Source: Thermoleophilia bacterium SCSIO 60948 (GTDB lineage: Bacteria; Actinomycetota; Thermoleophilia; Solirubrobacterales; 70-9). From it: 64,000 nucleotides of DNA. The translations under genes and the position numbers were made by a program. The DNA lies in NCBI GenBank assembly GCA_021496505.1, contig CP053031.1, positions 2,658,001-2,722,000 on the forward strand, in the 5' to 3' direction. Under the pieces are notes generated by a model. That model ran no database searches. It was not told the DNA's origin and saw only the letters and a list, made by a program, of their open reading frames with translations. Shown piece after piece: positions 34,074 through 51,879 of this stretch. The stretch's first letter is position 1, and each line of letters starts with the position of its first letter.

Positions 34074-34120
34074 CCGCCGTCGGGGTTGGCGGTCGTATTG
34101 CCTGCAAACCCCGACGGCGG
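34074..34120. repeat. Hairpin repeat copy 1 (14-bp stem, 19-nt loop)
   Basis: CCGCCGTCGGGGTT (34074-34087) pairs exactly with AACCCCGACGGCGG (34107-34120). The loop contains GTCGTATTGCCTGCA, shared with copy 2. Confidence 0.8.
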
Positions 34121-34141
34121 CGGCTGGCCTGGTCCTCGCCA

Positions 34142-34176
34142 TCGGGGTTGGCTGTCGTATTGCCTGCAAACCCCGA
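34142..34176. repeat. Hairpin repeat copy 2 (8-bp stem, same loop)
   Basis: TCGGGGTT (34142-34149) pairs with AACCCCGA (34169-34176). Its 19-nt loop differs from copy 1 at one base. The two copies start about 62-68 bases apart. Confidence 0.8.
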
Positions 34177-34331
34177 CCGCGGTTCGAGGTCCGGGGTCCG
34201 AAGGCGCGCTTCGGCCCCCACCCTTTGCGGCCTGTCGGCCTCGGCCGCCGGCGCATGGGTTGCATCGTGCTGCGGACCCCGACCGTCGCCCGCCAGAGCC
34301 CACTGACGGCGAGGCAAAGGAGCGTTGAGAG

Positions 34332-43416: not shown

Positions 43417-43465
43417 AGCGGAGGGGGAGGGATTCGAACCCTCGATGGACGAGAAAACGCCCATA
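43417..43465 (-). repeat. Left attachment repeat (copy of tRNA-Ser 3' half)
   Basis: A 49-bp exact copy of 51787-51835. Similarity continues weakly to about 43476 (CGGT and TTCGAG), then ends before the anticodon stem could close, so this copy is not a functional tRNA. Confidence 0.88.
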
Positions 43466-43479
43466 TCGGTTTCGAGGCG

Positions 43480-43972
43480 TCAACGCCGAGGCCCGTTCTC
43501 GACTAGGTAGCTGTCGAGCAGCCAGCGCGCCACATCCTGCGACCGGAGGAATTGGGGTGACCCATCGGACGGCCGCTACTTGCCGGCCCGCTGGATCAAC
43601 TCCTTCAACGCACTCGACTGATCGCGGAGCGGCGGCGGGATGAGGAGCTTGGGCAAGCTGAACAGTGCGATCGTCCAGAAGAGCGCGAGAGAAGCGACCG
43701 TCGCCCAGCCGAGCAGATCGACGACGCCGGAGGGAAGGCGCAGCTCCCGAGTCAGCAGTAAGAGGCTTCCAAGTGCGAACACGACGCCTACAAAAGGCAT
43801 GTTCGTCGAAACCTCTCCAGAGCGAACTTCCAAACGGCCAGTATCCCGGTGGGGTGTCCGGGTCGAACAAGGGAAACTCACCTCTCCAGAAAGCTCGCCA
43901 CGGAACCAGGAACCCGAGAGCGAACGCGCCACCGACAATGGCGTTCGCGACGGTGCCAGCGTCGACCCCCAC
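43480..43972 (-). pseudogene. Broken small membrane-protein gene (frameshift and internal stop)
   Basis: Two overlapping frames look like parts of one gene. The first, from GTG 43972, gives MGVDAGTVANAIVGGAFALG and runs to GFDEHAF; the second continues as VGVVFALGSLLLLTRELR from about 43800 to the TAG at 43576. One extra T in a TTTT run near 43792-43795 would explain the shift. After that TAG the same frame stays open for about 30 codons (RPSDGSPQFLRSQDVARWLL) to the TGA at 43480. The inner part alone, ATG 43800 to 43576 (74 residues, two helices), could still be made. No family is recognised. Confidence 0.5.
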
Positions 43973-44067
43973 TCGCGAAGTAGGTATCAGGTAACTTCTC
44001 TGCGCGTCGCGCTAACGGATGCGTCCGGGCGGATCTATTGAAGCGGCTGACGAGCTAGCTTGAGACT

Positions 44068-44418
44068 GTGGCCGGCTCGTCTGAGACCACTGCTCTCGTG
44101 GACGCGGCGAGGACCGTCCAGGAGTACGCCGCGCTGATCCGCGTATTCGGCCTCAAGCTCCCTACCGGCTGGTTCGGGCGGCCCTACGACAATCTCCACG
44201 AGCTGACACTCGTAGAGCCCCGGAGACACCGGCTCCTCATCGAACTGGACCACCGGCTCTTGCTGAGCTTCGCAGGCCGACCCCTAGTTGCCGCAGAGGG
44301 CAAGGAGGCGTCGATCACAGCGTTCGACCAGCTCGTCTTCGACTGGTCTGAATATGGAGAGCCGACACCCCACTGCAAGGTCTTCTCCGAGGGTGGCGAA
44401 GTGCGTCTTATCGGCTAG
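44068..44418 (+). CDS. Hypothetical island protein
   Basis: A 116-residue protein from GTG 44068. It starts with a helical region (LVDAARTVQEYAALIRVFG) and has LHELTLVEPRRHRLLIELDHRLLLSFAG, then a C-terminal VFDWSEYGEPTPHCKVFSEGGEVRLIG. No signal peptide or TM helix. I do not recognise it. About 20 bases before its start are similar to those before the 44491 pseudogene (shared AGCTAGCTT). Confidence 0.55.
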   Translation: MAGSSETTALVDAARTVQEYAALIRVFGLKLPTGWFGRPYDNLHELTLVEPRRHRLLIELDHRLLLSFAGRPLVAAEGKEASITAFDQLVFDWSEYGEPTPHCKVFSEGGEVRLIG

Positions 44419-44490
44419 CCGCACGTCCGAGCGGGGTCTTGAAAGGCGGCACTAGGTGACCCCGGAGCGAGTTCAGCTAGCTTCGAAGAT

Positions 44491-44695
44491 GTGAGCGAGC
44501 CTCCGAGTCTTGAGGTTCGCCGGGGTCCGCAACCTGCAGATCACGCAGCCCGCCGACTGGGCACCGCAGGAAGCAGGTCAGATCGAGCACCTTCAGATCC
44601 GCCCCGAGGGGCAGAGTCCTCGAATCCGCTTTCTCGCGGGGGCCTTACCGTCGAGTTCGGCGCAAGACGAACTGCAGGGTGTGGTCCAGCGCTGA
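44491..44695 (+). pseudogene. Deleted, frameshifted inverted copy of the 45207-45614 gene
   Basis: From GTG 44491 the frame reads MSEPPS, like the start of the gene at 45207-45614 (MSEVPT). A second frame then gives FAGVRNLQITQPADWAPQEA, IEHLQIRPEGQSPRIRFLAG, matching the paralogue's FAAVRNLKVCQPSDW and HIRPEGQSPRIRFLAG. The middle ~70 codons are missing. A missing G in a G-run after FLAG moves LTVEF into another frame. It is on the opposite strand to its paralogue. Confidence 0.7.
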
Positions 44696-44762
44696 CCCAC
44701 ACCTCCAGCCTTAACGATCTGCAGCTACGCCCCACCGCTTCCGCTGCCATCGCCGGCGTGGG

Positions 44763-45065
44763 CTACGTCTCGGTTCCCCATGGGTCCGGTTCGTGGCGGG
44801 TTTCGAGGTGGACTTCCGGATCATCGTGGAGGTTCGAATGTTCGTCGTAGTGCCAGTGTCCACCCGGCTGGTCAGCCAGCTTGAGAAGCTGCGCTGCGAA
44901 CATCAGGAGGCCGTCGCGATTGCCGACGATGGCGACCGTTCCGTCCTGCGTGCCGGTCAGTCGCCTAGTGCTGAGATACCTATGCGAGATCCGGGCTCCT
45001 GACTTCATCCCCGCTAGCTCGAACAGTCGGTCTGCCATCTCCTGGATCTCATCGCGTTCAGCCAT
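44763..45065 (-). CDS. Imm32-like (immunity protein 32 family) protein
   Basis: A 100-residue protein from ATG 45065. The core TVAIVGNRDGLLMFAAQLLKLAD, then GGHWHYDEHSNLHDDPEVHLETR, resembles the Imm32 pattern (hydrophobic strand, GN-x-x-GL helix, then H-x-H/D). Imm32 proteins occur as immunity partners in polymorphic toxin loci and also alone. No toxin gene is adjacent. Its assignment is by eye only. Confidence 0.6.
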   Translation of the reverse strand: MAERDEIQEMADRLFELAGMKSGARISHRYLSTRRLTGTQDGTVAIVGNRDGLLMFAAQLLKLADQPGGHWHYDEHSNLHDDPEVHLETRHEPDPWGTET

Positions 45066-45075
45066 AGCCAACATC

Positions 45076-45210
45076 GTGCCCGAACCGCGCGGTCGGCGGC
45101 TCGACAAGCTCTCGAAGGAGGCGCAGATCGACGCCGTTGTGGCGCTCGCGGTGGCGGTCGAGCGGGCCGGGGTGAGGACGGAGCCGGTGCGGCTCGTGGG
45201 GTGGGTCTAG
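45076..45210 (+). pseudogene. Remnant of phage terminase large subunit C-terminus
   Basis: About 44 codons from GTG 45076 to TAG 45210 read EPRGRRLDKLSKEAQIDAVVALAVAVERAG and end VRLVGWV. The pattern R(L)-x-K-x-x-K-x-x-x-IDAVVALAMA is the usual tail of large-terminase nuclease domains. No upstream part of the gene remains. The piece is on the opposite strand to the genes on both sides and marks a phage origin for part of the island. Confidence 0.6.
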
Positions 45211-45614
45211 GCCCGGGCCGCCCCTTCGACCCGACCCGCATCAAACTCATAGGTCAGCCCTCCAGCGAGGAAGCGAATTCGCGGGCTCTGACCTTCTGGA
45301 CGGATGTGCAGGTGGTCGATTTGACCGGCTTCCCGCGCGTCCCAGTCGGACGGCTGGCAGACCTTCAGGTTTCGAACCGCGGCGAACTTCAGGAGGAACT
45401 CGCAAGGGACCTTCGCGGGGGCCCCATCTGGCTCCCAGTATTCCGTGATCTGGAACGTGAACGTCAAGGCGCCTCGCCCGAACGTGACCGGCTGCAACCA
45501 GCCCCAGTTGTAGAGGTCGAATCGTCGCCCATCGAGCGTTTGCAGCTCGATCAGCGGCTCGTCGAACGCCGGGACGACGAGGCCTGTGAATGAGATGGTC
45601 GGGACCTCGCTCAC
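45207..45614 (-). CDS. Hypothetical island protein with a degraded inverted paralogue
   Basis: A 135-residue protein (MSEVPTISFTGLVVPAFDEP). Beta-rich N-terminal half (LYNWGWLQPVTFGRGALTFTFQI, YWEPDGAPAKVPCEFLLKF) and a C-terminal block ending HLHIRPEGQSPRIRFLAGG. No signal peptide, TM helix or known motif. A partly deleted copy lies at 44491-44695 on the other strand, so the gene was duplicated inside the island. Function unknown. Confidence 0.6.
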   Translation of the reverse strand: MSEVPTISFTGLVVPAFDEPLIELQTLDGRRFDLYNWGWLQPVTFGRGALTFTFQITEYWEPDGAPAKVPCEFLLKFAAVRNLKVCQPSDWDAREAGQIDHLHIRPEGQSPRIRFLAGGLTYEFDAGRVEGAARA

Positions 45615-45705
45615 CCCGCAAAGCTATAGGTGAAGAGGCGCTACGCGGCATGGCTCCCCCCCGTTTTTGCGCGGAGCACTCGGACGCATCCCTCTAATGC
45701 GACGC

Positions 45706-46281
45706 TCAAAGAACGCGGCCAAGCTCCTCCAGCTCGGCACGGACGGCTACCGCGAAACCGTCAATCCGATCCTCGGTCGCGACCATCCTTCGAGCGAGAT
45801 CGTCAACGGTCTCGGTCTCGATCGGGACCTCTACGTCCTCGAGCGCGGAAAGGTGGGCAACACCAGCACCGAGAGCCAGGCGATAGGCCAGCACTGGCGG
45901 ATGATGCACCGGGAATCGCAGGGTCAGGATCCGGCTCGATTCCGCCGCTTCGCGCACCGCCGCGTTCGCGGCCGCGACGCGCTCCTCGACGCGGTTGTAG
46001 GTCTCGGCCGAAACCGATGGACCGTTGACCGCCTTAACCGTCTCGGTCGCTCGCTGGAGAGAGAGTGCGAGGGCGGCAAGGTAGGCGCTCACCTCGTCCA
46101 AGGTCCCGCGCAGCTCGCTTCGGTCGTCCATGCGCCGAGCATGGTCTAGCTGTCGATCGAGCCGCACGGCCTCGGCATCAAGCTGAGCCTGGTGGCGGTC
46201 GGCGGACTCTTGGAGTTGCTCCCGTTGTCGCCTCTGGGCGAAATAGGCCGTGAGAAGCGCCGCGCCGGTCGCCGCGATCAC
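45706..46281 (-). CDS. Membrane-anchored coiled-coil protein
   Basis: A 191-residue protein from GTG 46281 with one N-terminal TM helix (IAATGAALLTAYFA), then a long charged helix (QRRQREQLQESADRHQAQLDAE) and a helical cytoplasmic domain. In-frame sequence upstream (AAGFPWREVLVAIGAV) extends the helix but has no ATG/GTG/TTG before a stop at about 46365. The true start may be a rare codon there. It resembles no family I know; single-TM plus coiled-coil proteins are often membrane effectors or phage accessory proteins. Confidence 0.55.
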   Translation of the reverse strand: MIAATGAALLTAYFAQRRQREQLQESADRHQAQLDAEAVRLDRQLDHARRMDDRSELRGTLDEVSAYLAALALSLQRATETVKAVNGPSVSAETYNRVEERVAAANAAVREAAESSRILTLRFPVHHPPVLAYRLALGAGVAHLSALEDVEVPIETETVDDLARRMVATEDRIDGFAVAVRAELEELGRVL

Positions 46282-46380
46282 AGCCCCGATCGCTACGAGG
46301 ACTTCCCGCCACGGGAATCCGGCCGCGTTGTTGATCGCGATGGTCGGCTCGATCGGCCGACACTAGGAGACCGGTCGGCG

Positions 46381-46669
46381 CTACCCGCGCATCGTGTTAA
46401 GCCTCGCCTCCACGACCCGATGGCAGGGGCCGCAGAGCGCGATCCCGTTCGAGTGCGGGTCGTTCGACCCCCCGTCCCGGAGGGCGACCACGTGATGGGC
46501 TTCTAGGGCGCGACCCCCGCGTCCGCACCGCTGGCAGACCCCCCGCGTTCCGGATCACGACGGCGCGGAGGTGGGTCGATCCGGCGCGCCCCGGGGTCTG
46601 TTGCGGCTTGGCCCGGCAGAGCGGGCAGCGGTGGATCACGACGCCGCACCCGAGATAGGTGCGCTTCAT
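46381..46669 (-). pseudogene. Phage-type HNH endonuclease with a frameshift
   Basis: From ATG 46669 the frame reads MKRTYLGCGVVIHRCPLCRA and continues LRAVVIRN. The rest is in another frame: VCQRCGRGGRALEAHHVVAL, then DPHSNGIALCGPCHRVVEAR, ending at the TAG at 46381. Together they form a small HNH nuclease with two CxxC knuckles and the HH..N..H catalytic site, as found near phage terminase genes. The shift maps to a run of six C at about 46539-46544. It could be real decay or a sequencing error. Confidence 0.72.
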
Positions 46670-46770
46670 CGCCGCGCCAGGATGATCGTCTCGGTCCCCT
46701 CGCGCGACTAGCCGGAGGTGCCGGCCCCCGAGCGCGACCTCACAGGCGAGCGCCTCCGGCTCTCATGACC

Positions 46771-46810
46771 GCGATTCAGTAAAGAACCGTTCGGTCGTTT
46801 ACGCGATTCA
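46771..46810. repeat. Imperfect palindrome between two GCGATTCA repeats
   Basis: GCGATTCA occurs at 46771-46778 and 46803-46810. Between them, 46779-46802 is an interrupted palindrome: GTAAA and ACCG on the left mirror CGGT and TTTAC on the right. It could be an operator or a recombination core. Confidence 0.6.
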
Positions 46811-46965
46811 CTGGAGGCGCGCCGAAGGGTGAAGCGACGGCATGGCGCAGGAATCGACGACCCAGGGGAGACGACTGGCGCGCTGCGCTTAGACGGCCGC
46901 GTCGTGAGCCCGTGCCCGTGGCGTCCGCTTGAGTCGTATAGAACTCCGGCCGTCAAGCAGCGTTA

Positions 46966-47011
46966 GGCGGCCCGCCCGGTCTCGGACTAGTCATCCGAGT
47001 GGCGGGCCGCC
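46966..47011 (+). terminator. Strong nested hairpin before the NTase operon
   Basis: GGCGGCCCGCC (46966-46976) pairs perfectly with GGCGGGCCGCC (47001-47011). Inside, CTCGGA (46981-46986) pairs with TCCGAG (46994-46999). It ends about 107 bases before the NTase ATG and is followed by AATCTTTCTCC. It may insulate the operon from upstream transcription. Confidence 0.6.
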
Positions 47012-47118
47012 AATCTTTCTCCGGCGGCTCGGAGCCGTCCGACCCCGGTGCTTCCATTGAGTTTGGGCCTGACTAGCCCAGACGTACTGCTGCTCTGACA
47101 CGGAAGGACCTATCTCAA

Positions 47119-48204
47119 ATGACTTCGTTCGCTGGCGCCGAGAGAGCGCCCGCCGAAAACGTGATCGAGGAAATCCTCGACGAGATCCGAGTGCCGAAGC
47201 CGGTACTGGATGAAGCAAGGAGCCGCCGAGAGTTGGTTCTAGAAATCGCCCACTCCCACAGGGCTGGACGAGAGAAGTTCCGCTCGGGCTCGGTCGCGCA
47301 CGGCACCGAGAACCGCCCGCTCGAGGATGCGGACTGCGGCGAGATGATCAACCGGCGCTACGAGACGTTTCGCGCCTATGGACCCGACGGGAAGGGCGAG
47401 GGGCCGGCTCGGTTCGTTGAAACATTCCGCGAGATGATCGGCGCAGGTGTTCGCGATAGCTACCCAGAGGCGACCGCGACCACGGGCGGCCAGAAGCGCT
47501 CGATCAAGGTCGAGTTCAACGCTCCGGTCGCCTTCGATGACGAAGGTCCGGTCGACCCTTACGTCGATTTCATCGTCGGTCTCGCCATGACCGAGGACAG
47601 CACAGGTATCTGGATCCCGAATCTGCTCAGTAACTCGTGGGATCCGGGCGATCCGAAGCGGCACACGGATCTCATGACCAAGACGGGTCCTTCCGGCCTG
47701 AGCCCATTCCGTGCCAAGGTGCTGCGACTAGCGAAGAGGGCGGTGAAGCGAGACGGAGCTAACGGTGGCGTGGCTGTGATGTGCTCGTGGAACCTGAGCG
47801 CGCTGGCGCTGGAATGCATCGACGAGGTGTCGACCTTGGGCCGAGGGCTGGAGCGCTTCTTTCGCTACGCCTCCTCCGCGATCGCGATGAACCTGACCCA
47901 AGACCCGTCAGACGCGATCACACAGCCGATCAAGCTGCCCCGTGGGGTCAGCCAGGCTCAGGCGTCCGAGAGACTCGGAGAAATGGCTACAGCCGTCTCG
48001 AGGGCGAACCGCGCCTACACGCCGCAAGCGGCGCGGAACGAACTTCGCCCGCTGTTCGGACCCGAGATCGAGACCATCGACGCACGCGCGGCCGATCGCC
48101 TCGGCGGCTCCCTCCGCCGTGAAGACTCAGCACGCGTGGCCAGCGCGATCGGGTCGAGCTATCCCCAATCCGGGAGTTCGTGGCGTGATGAGCACGGCGC
48201 TTGA
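47119..48204 (+). CDS. CD-NTase-like nucleotidyltransferase (candidate CBASS cyclase)
   Basis: A 361-residue pol-beta-superfamily nucleotidyltransferase. The GS motif is SGSVAHGT (56-63), the two metal Asp residues are D70 and D72 (PLEDADCGEMI), and a third carboxylate fits D150 (PYVDFIVG). The IWIPNLLSNSWDPGDPKRH block near 164-182 resembles the W..x-P..H region of CD-NTases, followed by a helical spine (FRAKVLRLAKRAVKR). Length is usual for the family. Such enzymes make cyclic oligonucleotides after phage infection. The E2-like gene overlaps its end by 17 bases. The specific clade and product cannot be read. Confidence 0.72.
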   Translation: MTSFAGAERAPAENVIEEILDEIRVPKPVLDEARSRRELVLEIAHSHRAGREKFRSGSVAHGTENRPLEDADCGEMINRRYETFRAYGPDGKGEGPARFVETFREMIGAGVRDSYPEATATTGGQKRSIKVEFNAPVAFDDEGPVDPYVDFIVGLAMTEDSTGIWIPNLLSNSWDPGDPKRHTDLMTKTGPSGLSPFRAKVLRLAKRAVKRDGANGGVAVMCSWNLSALALECIDEVSTLGRGLERFFRYASSAIAMNLTQDPSDAITQPIKLPRGVSQAQASERLGEMATAVSRANRAYTPQAARNELRPLFGPEIETIDARAADRLGGSLRREDSARVASAIGSSYPQSGSSWRDEHGA

Positions 48205-48643
48205 AGACCACGACGCACTACGAATTCGGTTCGAGTCCCAGGCGATAGAGGCTGGCCTCGTCTTCGCAAGAAGAGATCGCGGCCTCAGCGGCTACCGCTA
48301 CGACTTCACAGTCGAGGTAGTCGGCTCGGACTTAGTCCGGCGCATCTTCGTCTACTGGTCACCTGACCAGCCTCACGACCCGATCAGTCGGATGTCTGGG
48401 ATCGCGTGCCGGCTCCATCGGAACAGGTCGGCGAGCTCGGCGATCCACGACCTCTCCCTCTGCCTTTGGTCGCCGTACGATCCGCCGGAGGATCGGTGGA
48501 GCCTCGATGGCGGGCTACGGCAGTTGCGCGATCTCGCCGCCACGCATGCGTACTGCGAGTGGCGCTGCCAGCTCGGAGAGGCTTGGCCTAAGCGCGAAGC
48601 TGGGGTTCACGCTCGACCGAAGGACTGTCGCGGATGCGCCTAG
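48188..48643 (+). CDS. Prokaryotic E2-like (Cap2 short-type) protein
   Basis: A 151-residue protein from ATG 48188, inside the end of the NTase gene. Layout follows bacterial E2-like folds: strands YRYDFTVEVVG and RRIFVYWSPD, then HDLSLCLWSPYDP with candidate catalytic Cys at C92, a helix (GGLRQLRDLAATHAYCEWRCQLGEAWP) and a trailing H141. The LCL and W-x-x-x-x-x-x-x-WP signatures are those of the E2 domains in short type II CBASS, where an E2 acts without E1 to attach the cyclase C-terminus to targets. The canonical HPN motif is absent. No E1/JAB gene is nearby. Confidence 0.66.
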   Translation: MSTALEDHDALRIRFESQAIEAGLVFARRDRGLSGYRYDFTVEVVGSDLVRRIFVYWSPDQPHDPISRMSGIACRLHRNRSASSAIHDLSLCLWSPYDPPEDRWSLDGGLRQLRDLAATHAYCEWRCQLGEAWPKREAGVHARPKDCRGCA

Positions 48644-49182
48644 CAATCGCGATGTCTCAGGACCTGACTCCGATCGTTCCATTGGTCGCGGCGAGCGTCG
48701 GACTACTCGGCGCGTTCGTGACGCTCTGGGTAAATGGTGATCGCGCTGAGCGCAAGCGACGCCGAGAGCTCCGAGCGCGGGCGCTGGAGTCCGTCCTTGC
48801 CTATCGAGAGATGCCCTTCATGGTCCGACGTCGGCGATGCGAGCCGGAGGAACGTAGTGCGGAGCGGGTTCGGCTCTCGTCCCGCCTGTCGGCGATACAG
48901 GCCGAGCTCGCTACCTGCGAGCAACTGATCGCCGCAGACGGAAACCCGCGAGTCGTGAACGAATACTCGAGGCTGGTAGCTACGGCGCGCTCGACAGCGG
49001 GAGGGGAGACCCACGAAGCCTGGAAGGTCGAACCGATCAGCGCGGATTCGGAGGTCAACATGCCGGAGCTGTACGGGCGTCTCGACCCGTTGAACGAAGC
49101 CATTGAAGACTTCCGTGCGCGAATCGAATGGGCGAATCGCTCGCGTCGCTCGAAAGTTCGAAACTGGCGTCAGCGTCCGTAG
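48634..49182 (+). CDS. Single-TM protein with helical cytoplasmic domain, candidate effector
   Basis: A 182-residue protein. ATG 48634 overlaps the E2-like gene by 10 bases and has AAGGA upstream; ATG 48652 is an alternative. One TM helix (IVPLVAASVGLLGAFVTLWV, about 14-33) is followed by a basic juxtamembrane stretch (RAERKRRRELRARALES) and a soluble helical region to the end. The position third after NTase and E2, and the membrane anchor, fit a pore- or membrane-damaging effector. No known nucleotide-sensing domain is recognised, so this is inference. Confidence 0.6.
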   Translation: MRLAIAMSQDLTPIVPLVAASVGLLGAFVTLWVNGDRAERKRRRELRARALESVLAYREMPFMVRRRRCEPEERSAERVRLSSRLSAIQAELATCEQLIAADGNPRVVNEYSRLVATARSTAGGETHEAWKVEPISADSEVNMPELYGRLDPLNEAIEDFRARIEWANRSRRSKVRNWRQRP

Positions 49183-49275
49183 AGGAATCAACGAAGCGAG
49201 GTGGCTCGGTCGCTGTAACCGAGCCTGCCTGACGAGGTGATCTCGAAGCTCCCGCACCGGAGCAGCGACTCGACG

Positions 49276-49320
49276 CCGAGGATCCCTAGGAGTGCCTATG
49301 GGAACCCGCGACAGGAGTCC
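49276..49320. repeat. Repeat R1 (cassette-type)
   Basis: First copy of the repeat CCGAGGATCCCTAGGAGT-...-GGGAACCCGCGA...GGAGTCC. It lies between the ends of the single-TM gene and the 49352-49768 gene and differs from R2 at three positions over about 45 bases. Confidence 0.8.
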
Positions 49321-49351
49321 GAGGGAAGCGCCGCCGTCGGCCCTTACACCG

Positions 49352-49768
49352 TCAATAGCGGTCAGGTTCGACGTCGGTCTCCGCCGTCTCAAAGCCGCCC
49401 TCGGCGGACTGCTTCCCGCCGTAGCGGAAGGCGTAGACGGTCATCCCGATCGGCCCTGCGAGGAGCGACAGGTTCCAGGGCACGCGGTGTTTCGCCAGCT
49501 CTTCGTTCTTCTGCATGTGATCGAAGAGCCCCCAAGCAGCTGGCATGGCGAGAAGCACACTTGCCCCAAAAATGAGCATGAAATAGACCGCGTCGCGACC
49601 CCTTCCCGACGCGTCGGGTTCCCCGAAGACGAGGTACAGCACCCCGAAGGTGATGAGCGGCAACCAAAGTGTCACCGCCCATCGCCGGAGCGGTGCTGGC
49701 CTTGGCGGCTTTGGGTCGGGATCCTCCTGAACGACCGGGATCGTCCCTGGCTCTTCGCCCCCGATCAT
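49352..49768 (-). CDS. Small two-TM membrane protein of unknown function
   Basis: A 138-residue protein. ATG 49768 overlaps the stop of the next gene upstream (ATGA), so I rejected the longer frame from 49876. Two TM helices (AVTLWLPLITFGVLYLVFG and VYFMLIFGASVLLAMPAAWG) are followed by a basic region and a hydrophobic SLLAGPIGMTVYAFRYGG. It is coupled with the 49765-50139 gene. No family is recognised. Confidence 0.6.
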   Translation of the reverse strand: MIGGEEPGTIPVVQEDPDPKPPRPAPLRRWAVTLWLPLITFGVLYLVFGEPDASGRGRDAVYFMLIFGASVLLAMPAAWGLFDHMQKNEELAKHRVPWNLSLLAGPIGMTVYAFRYGGKQSAEGGFETAETDVEPDRY

Positions 49769-50139
49769 GGCGCGCTCCCCGCAGTCGCGGCCTCTTGTCG
49801 AGGCAGCTCGCGAATCAGGTTGCTCCACACCAGCGGCAGCGCGATTGGGAAGAAGAGCAAAGTGCCGGCCAGCCACCGGGACCTTGACTGAGAGGTGATG
49901 TCCTCGCGGCGGGAGACATGGGTGATCGCCCAGATCATTCCGATGAGCCAGAGGACCAGCGCCACTGCGACCATCGCGACGACACCTGGCGGGCTCTGGG
50001 CCCCCTGTTCGCGTACCAGGGCATCTACAACCATCGCGCCGCCAAAGACGACAACCGGTGCGAACGCTACGAACTGAAACAGCCGCTTCTTGCCATTCGA
50101 GTACGCGGGCGCCGCAGTGAAGTCAGCCACGATCTGCAT
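49765..50139 (-). CDS. Small membrane protein of unknown function, cassette gene
   Basis: A 124-residue protein with three hydrophobic segments: FQFVAFAPVVVFGGAMVVDAL, GVVAMVAVALVLWLIGMIWAI and GTLLFFPIALPLVWSNLI. It forms an ATGA-coupled pair with the 49352-49768 gene. Repeat R2 lies 47 bases upstream of its ATG. Not recognised. Confidence 0.6.
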   Translation of the reverse strand: MQIVADFTAAPAYSNGKKRLFQFVAFAPVVVFGGAMVVDALVREQGAQSPPGVVAMVAVALVLWLIGMIWAITHVSRREDITSQSRSRWLAGTLLFFPIALPLVWSNLIRELPRQEAATAGSAP

Positions 50140-50185
50140 TCTGGCAAGCAGCGAAGCACGCGCTGGCCAGCCCGTCCAAAGGTGA

Positions 50186-50258
50186 CCGAGGATCCCTAGG
50201 AGTCCCTATGGGAACCCGCGATAGGAGTCCCAGGTAGATCGTTCCATCTGCCTCGCAG
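50186..50258. repeat. Repeat R2 (cassette-type)
   Basis: About 73 bases, beginning CCGAGGATCCCTAGGAGTCC and ending GCCTCGCAG. It carries the core GGGAACCCGCGATAGGAGTC and the tail AGGTAGATCGTTCCAT. Upstream of the 49765-50139 gene. Confidence 0.85.
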
Positions 50259-50342
50259 TCCGGTCGAGGCCCGTACCTAGTCGAGAACGAACTGCCTAAA
50301 TGCGGTGAGTTGGATGCACCCCGACGTGCGGCGGCGAACCGG

Positions 50343-50756
50343 CTACGGGTGTCCTCGCTCGCCCTCAAGACCCTCGGCGTTCCAGATGTCGCGCCTCACA
50401 GACCGACCGTTGATGAGAAACCCGACACCACAGGCGGCGAGCAGTACTCCGTACGCGAGGGAGCCCTGGCCCAGGTCGATCACGCCCGGCACGAGAAGCG
50501 CACCGACGAGAAGCGCAGCGACCCCCGAGAGGTAGCTCACGCGAGCGACCGCTCTCAGATGCGACGTCCTTCCATCGAAGCTCTGCACCCAGGCCAGCTC
50601 GAAGAGAAAGCTGATGATCGAGCTCGCTGCGAGTCCGGCTAGCGCCAGAACCGTTCGATCGGTAATCGCGCCAATCAGGAATGCCGCGATCCCTCCAAGC
50701 ACGCTCAGAACGACAAGGACCTGCTTGCGTCCTTCGACCCGGATCACACTGAGCAA
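50343..50756 (-). CDS. Small four-TM membrane protein, cassette gene
   Basis: A 137-residue protein with four hydrophobic segments (VLVVLSVLGGIAAFLIGAI, VLALAGLAASSIISFLFEL, VSYLSGVAALLVGALLVPG, AYGVLLAACGVGFLING). A short basic N-terminus and C-terminal cytoplasmic tail are seen. Repeat R3 lies 77 bases upstream. No family is recognised. Confidence 0.6.
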   Translation of the reverse strand: MLSVIRVEGRKQVLVVLSVLGGIAAFLIGAITDRTVLALAGLAASSIISFLFELAWVQSFDGRTSHLRAVARVSYLSGVAALLVGALLVPGVIDLGQGSLAYGVLLAACGVGFLINGRSVRRDIWNAEGLEGERGHP

Positions 50757-50832
50757 GCTACCTCAACACTCCGCGCTCGAGGCGGAGCGATTCACGGAGG
50801 CGACCAAGGCGAACGCAGCCCTGCCCGAAAGC

Positions 50833-50930
50833 CCGAGGATCTCTAGGAGTCCCTATGGGAACCCGCGATAGGAGTTCCTATGGGAACCCGCGATAGGAGT
50901 CCCAGGTGGATCGCTCCATATGCCTCGCAG
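50833..50930. repeat. Repeat R3 (cassette-type, with an internal 25-bp tandem duplication)
   Basis: About 98 bases. The 25-base unit starting AGGAGT and containing CCTATGGGAACCCGCGAT occurs twice in tandem, followed by a partial third unit. The flanks match R2 (GGATCT/CCTAGG-type start; tail CTCCATATGCCTCGCAG). Confidence 0.85.
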
Positions 50931-50973
50931 CGGACCTCCGGGCACTCGTGGCAACTCCAGCCTCGCCCGCCAG

Positions 50974-51438
50974 TCAGGGGAGGTTCGGGAAGGTCACGTA
51001 GGCCAGCGCGAGGGTTGCCCCGAAGAGCACTCCGGCGGTAGCAACACCGACCCATGCTCCGACTCGGAAATCCCTTGGCCTTCCCGTCTGTCGCCAGCGA
51101 AGCAGTCCGAGCAGCGCTACGGCCAGCGGCAAGAACGCAAGTCCCAGCTTGAAGGCCAGGGAGGCCAGCGCCCCCGGCTCCCCACTCAGGCTTGCTAGAT
51201 CACATAGCGCGCTTGGGTCACGCTCGATCGGACCTCCGGATCCGCTGTAGGCGATATCGCCGGTCGGACTCTCGGCCGAGCACCTCACATCAGTGACGAA
51301 GAAGGCTGTGAAGCATCCGAAAGCAAGGAGCGCGAGCAGGACCGCCGCGACCGTGCCCTTCGAGATACCTACCGAGCTCCGCCTGGACGACTGAGAAGGA
51401 CCCAGGCCCGGAATGGATGGGCGCCCTCGTTGGTCCAC
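50974..51438 (-). CDS. Small membrane protein with extracellular loop, cassette gene
   Basis: A 154-residue protein with TM helices at about 27-47 (TVAAVLLALLAFGCFTAFFV), 93-112 (LAFKLGLAFLPLAVALLGLL) and 128-148 (VGVATAGVLFGATLALAYV). The loop after the first helix has two Cys residues (VRCSAES and ALCDLAS), likely extracellular. Repeat R4 lies 65 bases upstream. Not recognised. Confidence 0.6.
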   Translation of the reverse strand: MDQRGRPSIPGLGPSQSSRRSSVGISKGTVAAVLLALLAFGCFTAFFVTDVRCSAESPTGDIAYSGSGGPIERDPSALCDLASLSGEPGALASLAFKLGLAFLPLAVALLGLLRWRQTGRPRDFRVGAWVGVATAGVLFGATLALAYVTFPNLP

Positions 51439-51502
51439 TGACCGAATCTAGACCAGACCAAAGCCAACGTGGGCACTAGGGGCTGCATCACAGAGTCTGC
51501 GC

Positions 51503-51552
51503 AGGTCCCGATGCGAACCCGCGATGGGAGTCCCTCATGGATCGTTCCATGC
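51503..51552. repeat. Repeat R4 (cassette-type, diverged)
   Basis: A degenerate copy sharing GCGAACCCGCGATGGGAGTC and TGGATCGTTCCAT with R2/R3. It is 65 bases upstream of the 50974-51438 gene. Confidence 0.65.
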
Positions 51553-51768
51553 GCCCGGACTGACCGAACCCCTCTCGTCTGCCGAGTCCCCTGTGCCTAG
51601 CTTCCCAGCTGGTGTGTCATTCCGCCTGCCCCGAGGAGGACCTCGATCGTCCTCCCGTGGGGAAGTCTTGGGGAAGTGATCGCCCTACGGGTGCCTCTCA
51701 GAGCGGTTCTGGCGGGCCAGCCCGTTGGCAGCCCGTATTGCCAACAAGGTGGCAGCTAACCCATTACA

Positions 51769-51786
51769 GAGCCAAATCTGGCTCTA
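51769..51786. terminator. Hairpin next to tRNA-Ser 3' end
   Basis: AGAGCCA and TGGCTCT form a 7-bp stem with a four-base loop, directly at the 3' side of tRNA-Ser(CGA). It may end the tRNA transcript. Confidence 0.55.
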
Positions 51787-51788
51787 AG

Positions 51789-51879
51789 CGGAGGGGGAGG
51801 GATTCGAACCCTCGATGGACGAGAAAACGCCCATAACGGTTTTCGAGACCGCCGCATTCAACCGCTCTGCCACCCCTCC
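51789..51879 (-). tRNA. tRNA-Ser (CGA), island integration site
   Basis: A 91-base class II tRNA. Acceptor GGAGGGG pairs with CCCCTCC, with G as discriminator. Anticodon loop CTCGAAA gives anticodon CGA (codon UCG). A long variable arm and T-arm GAGGG-TTCGAAT-CCCTC complete it. Its 3' half is the att core of the island. Confidence 0.96.

Follow-up and report, generated by a model that had tools for sequence, protein, structure and literature searches.

In the window (the whole 64,000-nucleotide stretch of DNA analysed here), small membrane-protein genes, one or two per unit, are bracketed by related ~75-bp repeats, with n+1 repeats for n units. An 8.4-kb island of low GC lies at tRNA-Ser(CGA) (window 43417-51835), and the array makes up its tRNA-proximal end, a setting beside a CBASS operon that the first-pass annotation of the array had missed. 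Locally, the arrangement is real and unusual, in a defence island that is ordinary in other respects; being known from a single genome, it counts as a lead and not yet as a class.

The repeat family comprises four copies holding five 25-nt cores, all in a single orientation: R1 (49274..49346, plus strand) has the left arm and the core with a diverged right arm; R2 (50185..50259, plus) is a full copy of left arm, core and right arm; R3 (50830..50931, plus) is a full copy whose 25-nt core is duplicated in tandem as two overlapping 25-nt units; and R4 (51488..51561, plus) has the core and the right arm with a diverged left arm. The left edge CCGAGGATC is common to R1, R2 and R3, and the right edge CCTCGCAG to R2 and R3, while the best-conserved part is the core. 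With up to three mismatches, the core matched the window five times, against 0.00 expected from 100 dinucleotide shuffles. A mechanical repeat search returned a 62-nt family in five copies, and a profile made from the copies retrieved R1-R4 as the only notable matches in the window. Both searches upheld the positions listed earlier (R1 49276, R2 50186, R3 50833, R4 51503). All four repeats are related, as the first-pass annotation had stated, with two qualifications to its picture of repeats that separate units: over the aligned part, R1 is 74% and R4 61% identical to R2, which makes these two the weaker members, and R1 precedes no gene. The tandem duplication inside R3 shows that recombination or slippage takes place in the repeat itself.

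By profile boundaries, R2, R3 and R4 lie 46, 74 and 50 nt upstream of the unit starts; the 47-77 bases given earlier hold, with slightly different edges (47, 77 and 65 against 46, 74 and 50). R1 lies 6 nt past the stop codon of P1, the last gene, and no same-strand gene follows it.

The repeat was found in no searched genome other than its own. At up to three mismatches, it had no copy in 40 near relatives, in a further 398 genomes of the class or in another 231 of the order, and no further copy of the repeat occurs elsewhere in its own 3.4-Mb genome. An exact scan for a relaxed core, over one genome per species from 84,980 species and over viral contigs (both of which sets may leave out the records nearest the window), gave six single matches among the species and one among the viral contigs, which is the number expected by chance. 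All seven, considered as repeat copies, were single and in or beside long open frames and were put down to chance; the viral one was a lone ribosome-binding site and start, not a repeated motif. Neither of the two outcomes that the first-pass annotation had named as speaking against its reading was seen: the search for the R2 core that it proposed found no spread of the repeat without associated genes, and no relative searched has the same gene order. The mobile-cassette reading that it presumed is not shown by a single genome, since the array is known from one genome and offers no variation to compare.

The units consist of four genes for orphan membrane proteins on the minus strand: P1 (49352..49768, 138 aa), whose start overlaps the stop of P2 (49765..50139, 124 aa; weak sub-threshold CopD match); P3 (50343..50756, 137 aa; TTG or GTG start); and P4 (50974..51438, 154 aa; weak sub-threshold DUF998 match). 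Each has two to four hydrophobic segments, and the minus-strand frames had higher codon scores than the plus-strand frames overlapping them, in agreement with the earlier description of small membrane genes all on the minus strand. A plus-strand coding reading of the core, with an AGGAG Shine-Dalgarno-like motif and an ATG (MGTRDRSPR), was rejected: its frames either diverge or run straight into a stop, and plus-strand codon scores are worse. Family searches with P1-P4 yielded sub-threshold matches only, and no convincing homologue appeared in the 398 class genomes, where the matches were weak and the three examined overlap other long frames. Moreover, no homologue was found in viral contigs for P1 and P2, in plasmids for P3 or in phages for P4. 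The proteins had been called unrelated to each other; this stands for all pairs but P1 and P2, which share one unit and may be distantly related (windowed-shuffle p = 0.05), the other pairs having no similarity.

The island is delimited by its ends and its composition. The distal att copy (43417..43465, plus) repeats 49 bp of the 3' part of tRNA-Ser(CGA) without a mismatch, and the proximal copy (51787..51835, plus) lies inside the tRNA-Ser(CGA) gene (51788-51879, minus), so that both ends of the island have the same 49 bp from the tRNA 3' end, in direct orientation. GC is 63-67% in most 1-kb steps of the island (69% in one) and about 68-74% in the flanks. The 49-bp att duplication and the drop in GC define the island limits. 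No integrase was found in the island; the six PF00589 tyrosine recombinase matches in the genome all lie outside it. The cargo includes a short type II-like CBASS operon (47119-49182) that brings together a CD-NTase (cyclase; 47119..48204, plus; PDLC00777, E 9e-64), an E2-like protein (48188..48643, plus; PDLC00867, E 7e-11) and a 1TM membrane effector (48634..49182, plus; PDLC00666, E 4e-26). The accessory character of the array follows from its place in this integrated tRNA-Ser island with CBASS. Also present are an Imm32-like immunity gene (44763-45107; E 1e-8, above the Pfam cut-off), near which no toxin gene was noticed; a frame-broken HNH gene (searched as two frames read through by hand); and an orphan 135-aa gene (45207-45614), of which a truncated copy, 57% identical, lies on the opposite strand (44507-44689). 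A frame at 45100-45210 resembles by eye the C-terminus of a phage terminase, as a 38-residue piece without a Pfam match. Adjoining the distal att site is a small, apparently frameshifted membrane-protein gene (43576-43972) without a repeat. The whole is a tRNA genomic island with CBASS that lacks its integrase. It shares with such islands the directly repeated 3' end of the tRNA, the low GC, the defence operon, the orphan cargo and a phage scrap, and it differs from them in having no integrase inside and in that one end is a repeat-bracketed array of small membrane genes.

In the family, tRNA-Ser is an integration hotspot, where att copies are stacked in tandem around small cargo. Three same-orientation att copies surround cargo in each of two relatives: at 2511, 5895 and 11511 of contig L078 in G012, and at 177, 4287 and 5206 of contig L079 in G019. 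The att copies of relatives retain 28-64 nt of near-identity. AATCTGGCTCTA, the inner arm beside the tRNA of the window, recurs at the att copies of G012, so that the tRNA-Ser site has repeatedly served one integration system. When relatives were examined for an empty site, the order from tRNA-Ser to TrpB was seen to be kept in three of them (G004, G005 and G024), in which the left flank is non-syntenic.

Two sequence links connect the repeats with the att region: i) the core of R4, the repeat nearest the tRNA, is 16/18 identical to the tRNA-Ser T-loop att sequence; ii) a 16-mer CGTTCTCGACTAGGTA to the right of R2 (50274..50289, minus) recurs exactly, in inverted orientation, at 43494-43509 within the inner arm of the distal att site, with GAGGCCCG preceding each of the two inverted copies. 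Ranked against segments of the genome, each link has an uncorrected p of about 0.003; with all 24 comparisons taken into account, both are suggestive but marginal. A 16-mer that differs at one position from that of the att arm occurs in a coding frame 6 kb from an integrase and was judged a chance match.

We favour, tentatively and with a little less than even confidence, that cargo units accreted stepwise at repeat boundaries inside the tRNA-Ser island. Orphan small membrane-protein genes would have been added unit by unit, each bounded by a ~75-bp repeat; units would enter and be lost by recombination at the repeat, either through homologous recombination between direct repeats or through an att-type recombinase supplied from elsewhere; and such recombination would leave n+1 repeats around n units. 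The cargo, consisting of membrane proteins beside CBASS, an Imm32-like gene and phage scraps, would probably be related to defence, exclusion or immunity. Stepwise entry, recombination route and cargo function are the parts that we infer; what is observed are the unique repeats in their n+1 layout, both ends of the island, the CBASS operon and the lack of an integrase inside. Several points argue for accretion: i) none of the four boundaries lacks a repeat, not even the one behind the last gene, where a leader would be purposeless; ii) the unit genes are largely unrelated and without convincing homologues in the 398 class genomes; iii) the core of R3 is duplicated in tandem; iv) the att duplication of 49 bp and the fall in GC mark out an island; v) att copies are stacked in tandem around small cargo at this tRNA in relatives; vi) the two weak links join repeats and att sequence. 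On the other hand, the island has no integrase and no recombinase is known for the repeat; the repeat is in one genome only, so that no gain or loss of a unit is observed; the att links are marginal after correction; and the 46-74 nt spacing upstream of every unit start fits a leader equally well.

A shared regulatory leader is the rival that survives best, and we regard it as a real, if rather doubtful, possibility. The repeat would be an operator, a promoter-proximal or a 5'-UTR element that co-controls the three units and was spread by duplication, R1 being the leftover of a lost or replaced unit. The same-strand position of R2, R3 and R4 before all three unit starts and the superior conservation of the 25-nt core are consistent with this, as is a -10-like TAGATT seen by eye 6 nt before the GTG of P4. 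However, R1 precedes no gene, the distance from repeat to start varies by 28 nt, neither a sigma-70 promoter nor an intrinsic terminator was found, and the RNA fold z-scores of -0.3 to -2.1 on both strands are not significant. Rfam gave no family other than tRNA and no known cis-regulatory RNA leader. Repeat-bounded accretion fits the n+1 layout slightly better than a pure shared leader does.

The repeats might instead have decayed from attachment sites used by the tRNA-Ser integration system, with an att core as the origin of each repeat, in the manner of the tandem att arrays of relatives. The R4 match to the T-loop att core, in the repeat nearest the tRNA, and the 16-mer that the flank of R2 shares with the distal att arm speak for such an origin; the cores of R1-R3 match the att core less well, the real att copies of relatives retain the near-identity given above, and the significance is marginal after correction, all of which makes it improbable. 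Insertion of a MITE- or REP-like non-autonomous mobile repeat into intergenic gaps, to which the restriction of copies to gaps and the short inverted ends CGAGG...CCTCG of R2 and R3 would point, was already disfavoured and is unlikely, given that the 3.4-Mb genome has no dispersed copies, all four copies share one orientation and no target duplication was seen.

A bolder version of accretion, which we consider a long shot, is that a tRNA-directed recombinase acting in trans stacks membrane units of one or two genes at the ~75-bp repeats, whose core would mimic the tRNA-Ser T-loop, giving integrase-poor cassettes and a growing rack of phage-exclusion or immunity proteins beside CBASS.

The array was compared with three further known systems. 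Like an integron cassette array, it has small same-strand genes separated by related repeats; unlike in integrons, the conserved feature is the sequence of the repeat and not its fold. Within 49201-51700 there is no RYYYAAC ... GTTRRRY pair within 40-150 nt, and the genome encodes no IntI over the TIGR02249 cut-off; the earlier view that the repeats do not match integron attC sites is therefore confirmed. Phage morons are small accessory genes that carry their own flanking control DNA and are inserted between other genes. The array shares with them small accessory genes with flanking DNA, but here no promoter or terminator was found and the flanks are repeats of one another. In cluster K mycobacteriophages, SAS/ESAS is a repeated sequence near the starts of unrelated small genes, the SAS being a 13-bp GGGATAGGAGCCC with at most two deviations, 3-7 bp before the start and on the strand of the gene (PMC3203893). 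The sequence GCGATAGGAGTCC in R2 and R3 is 11/13 identical to GGGATAGGAGCCC, within two deviations, and likewise stands close to where unrelated small genes start; its direction, however, is away from these genes, and it lies 46-74 nt off and within a ~75-bp repeat, and a cluster K SAS was rejected on the opposite strand and the wrong distance.

If the repeats are recombination boundaries, the array would be a cassette-like way for bacteria to collect cargo without integrons, here within a defence island, and its orphan membrane proteins would be candidate phage-exclusion or immunity factors. As leaders, the repeats would mark a small co-regulated set of uncharacterised membrane proteins tied to the CBASS island.

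Other repeated features were seen in passing. In G012 (L078, 6000-11450), about ten SnoaL-like paralogues lie beside the same tRNA-Ser at intervals of ~405 nt; both their starts (MSQENVEIV) and their ends are conserved, and one of the starts is fused in frame to a metallophosphoesterase. In G019 (L079, 1-5300), tandem att-like blocks, each the tRNA 3' end with an arm of ~130 bp, are 4.1 and 0.92 kb apart, and the shorter interval (0.92 kb) contains a single SnoaL-like gene. In the window itself, 34075-34182 holds two 46-nt hairpin-like repeats, 93% identical and 62 nt apart.
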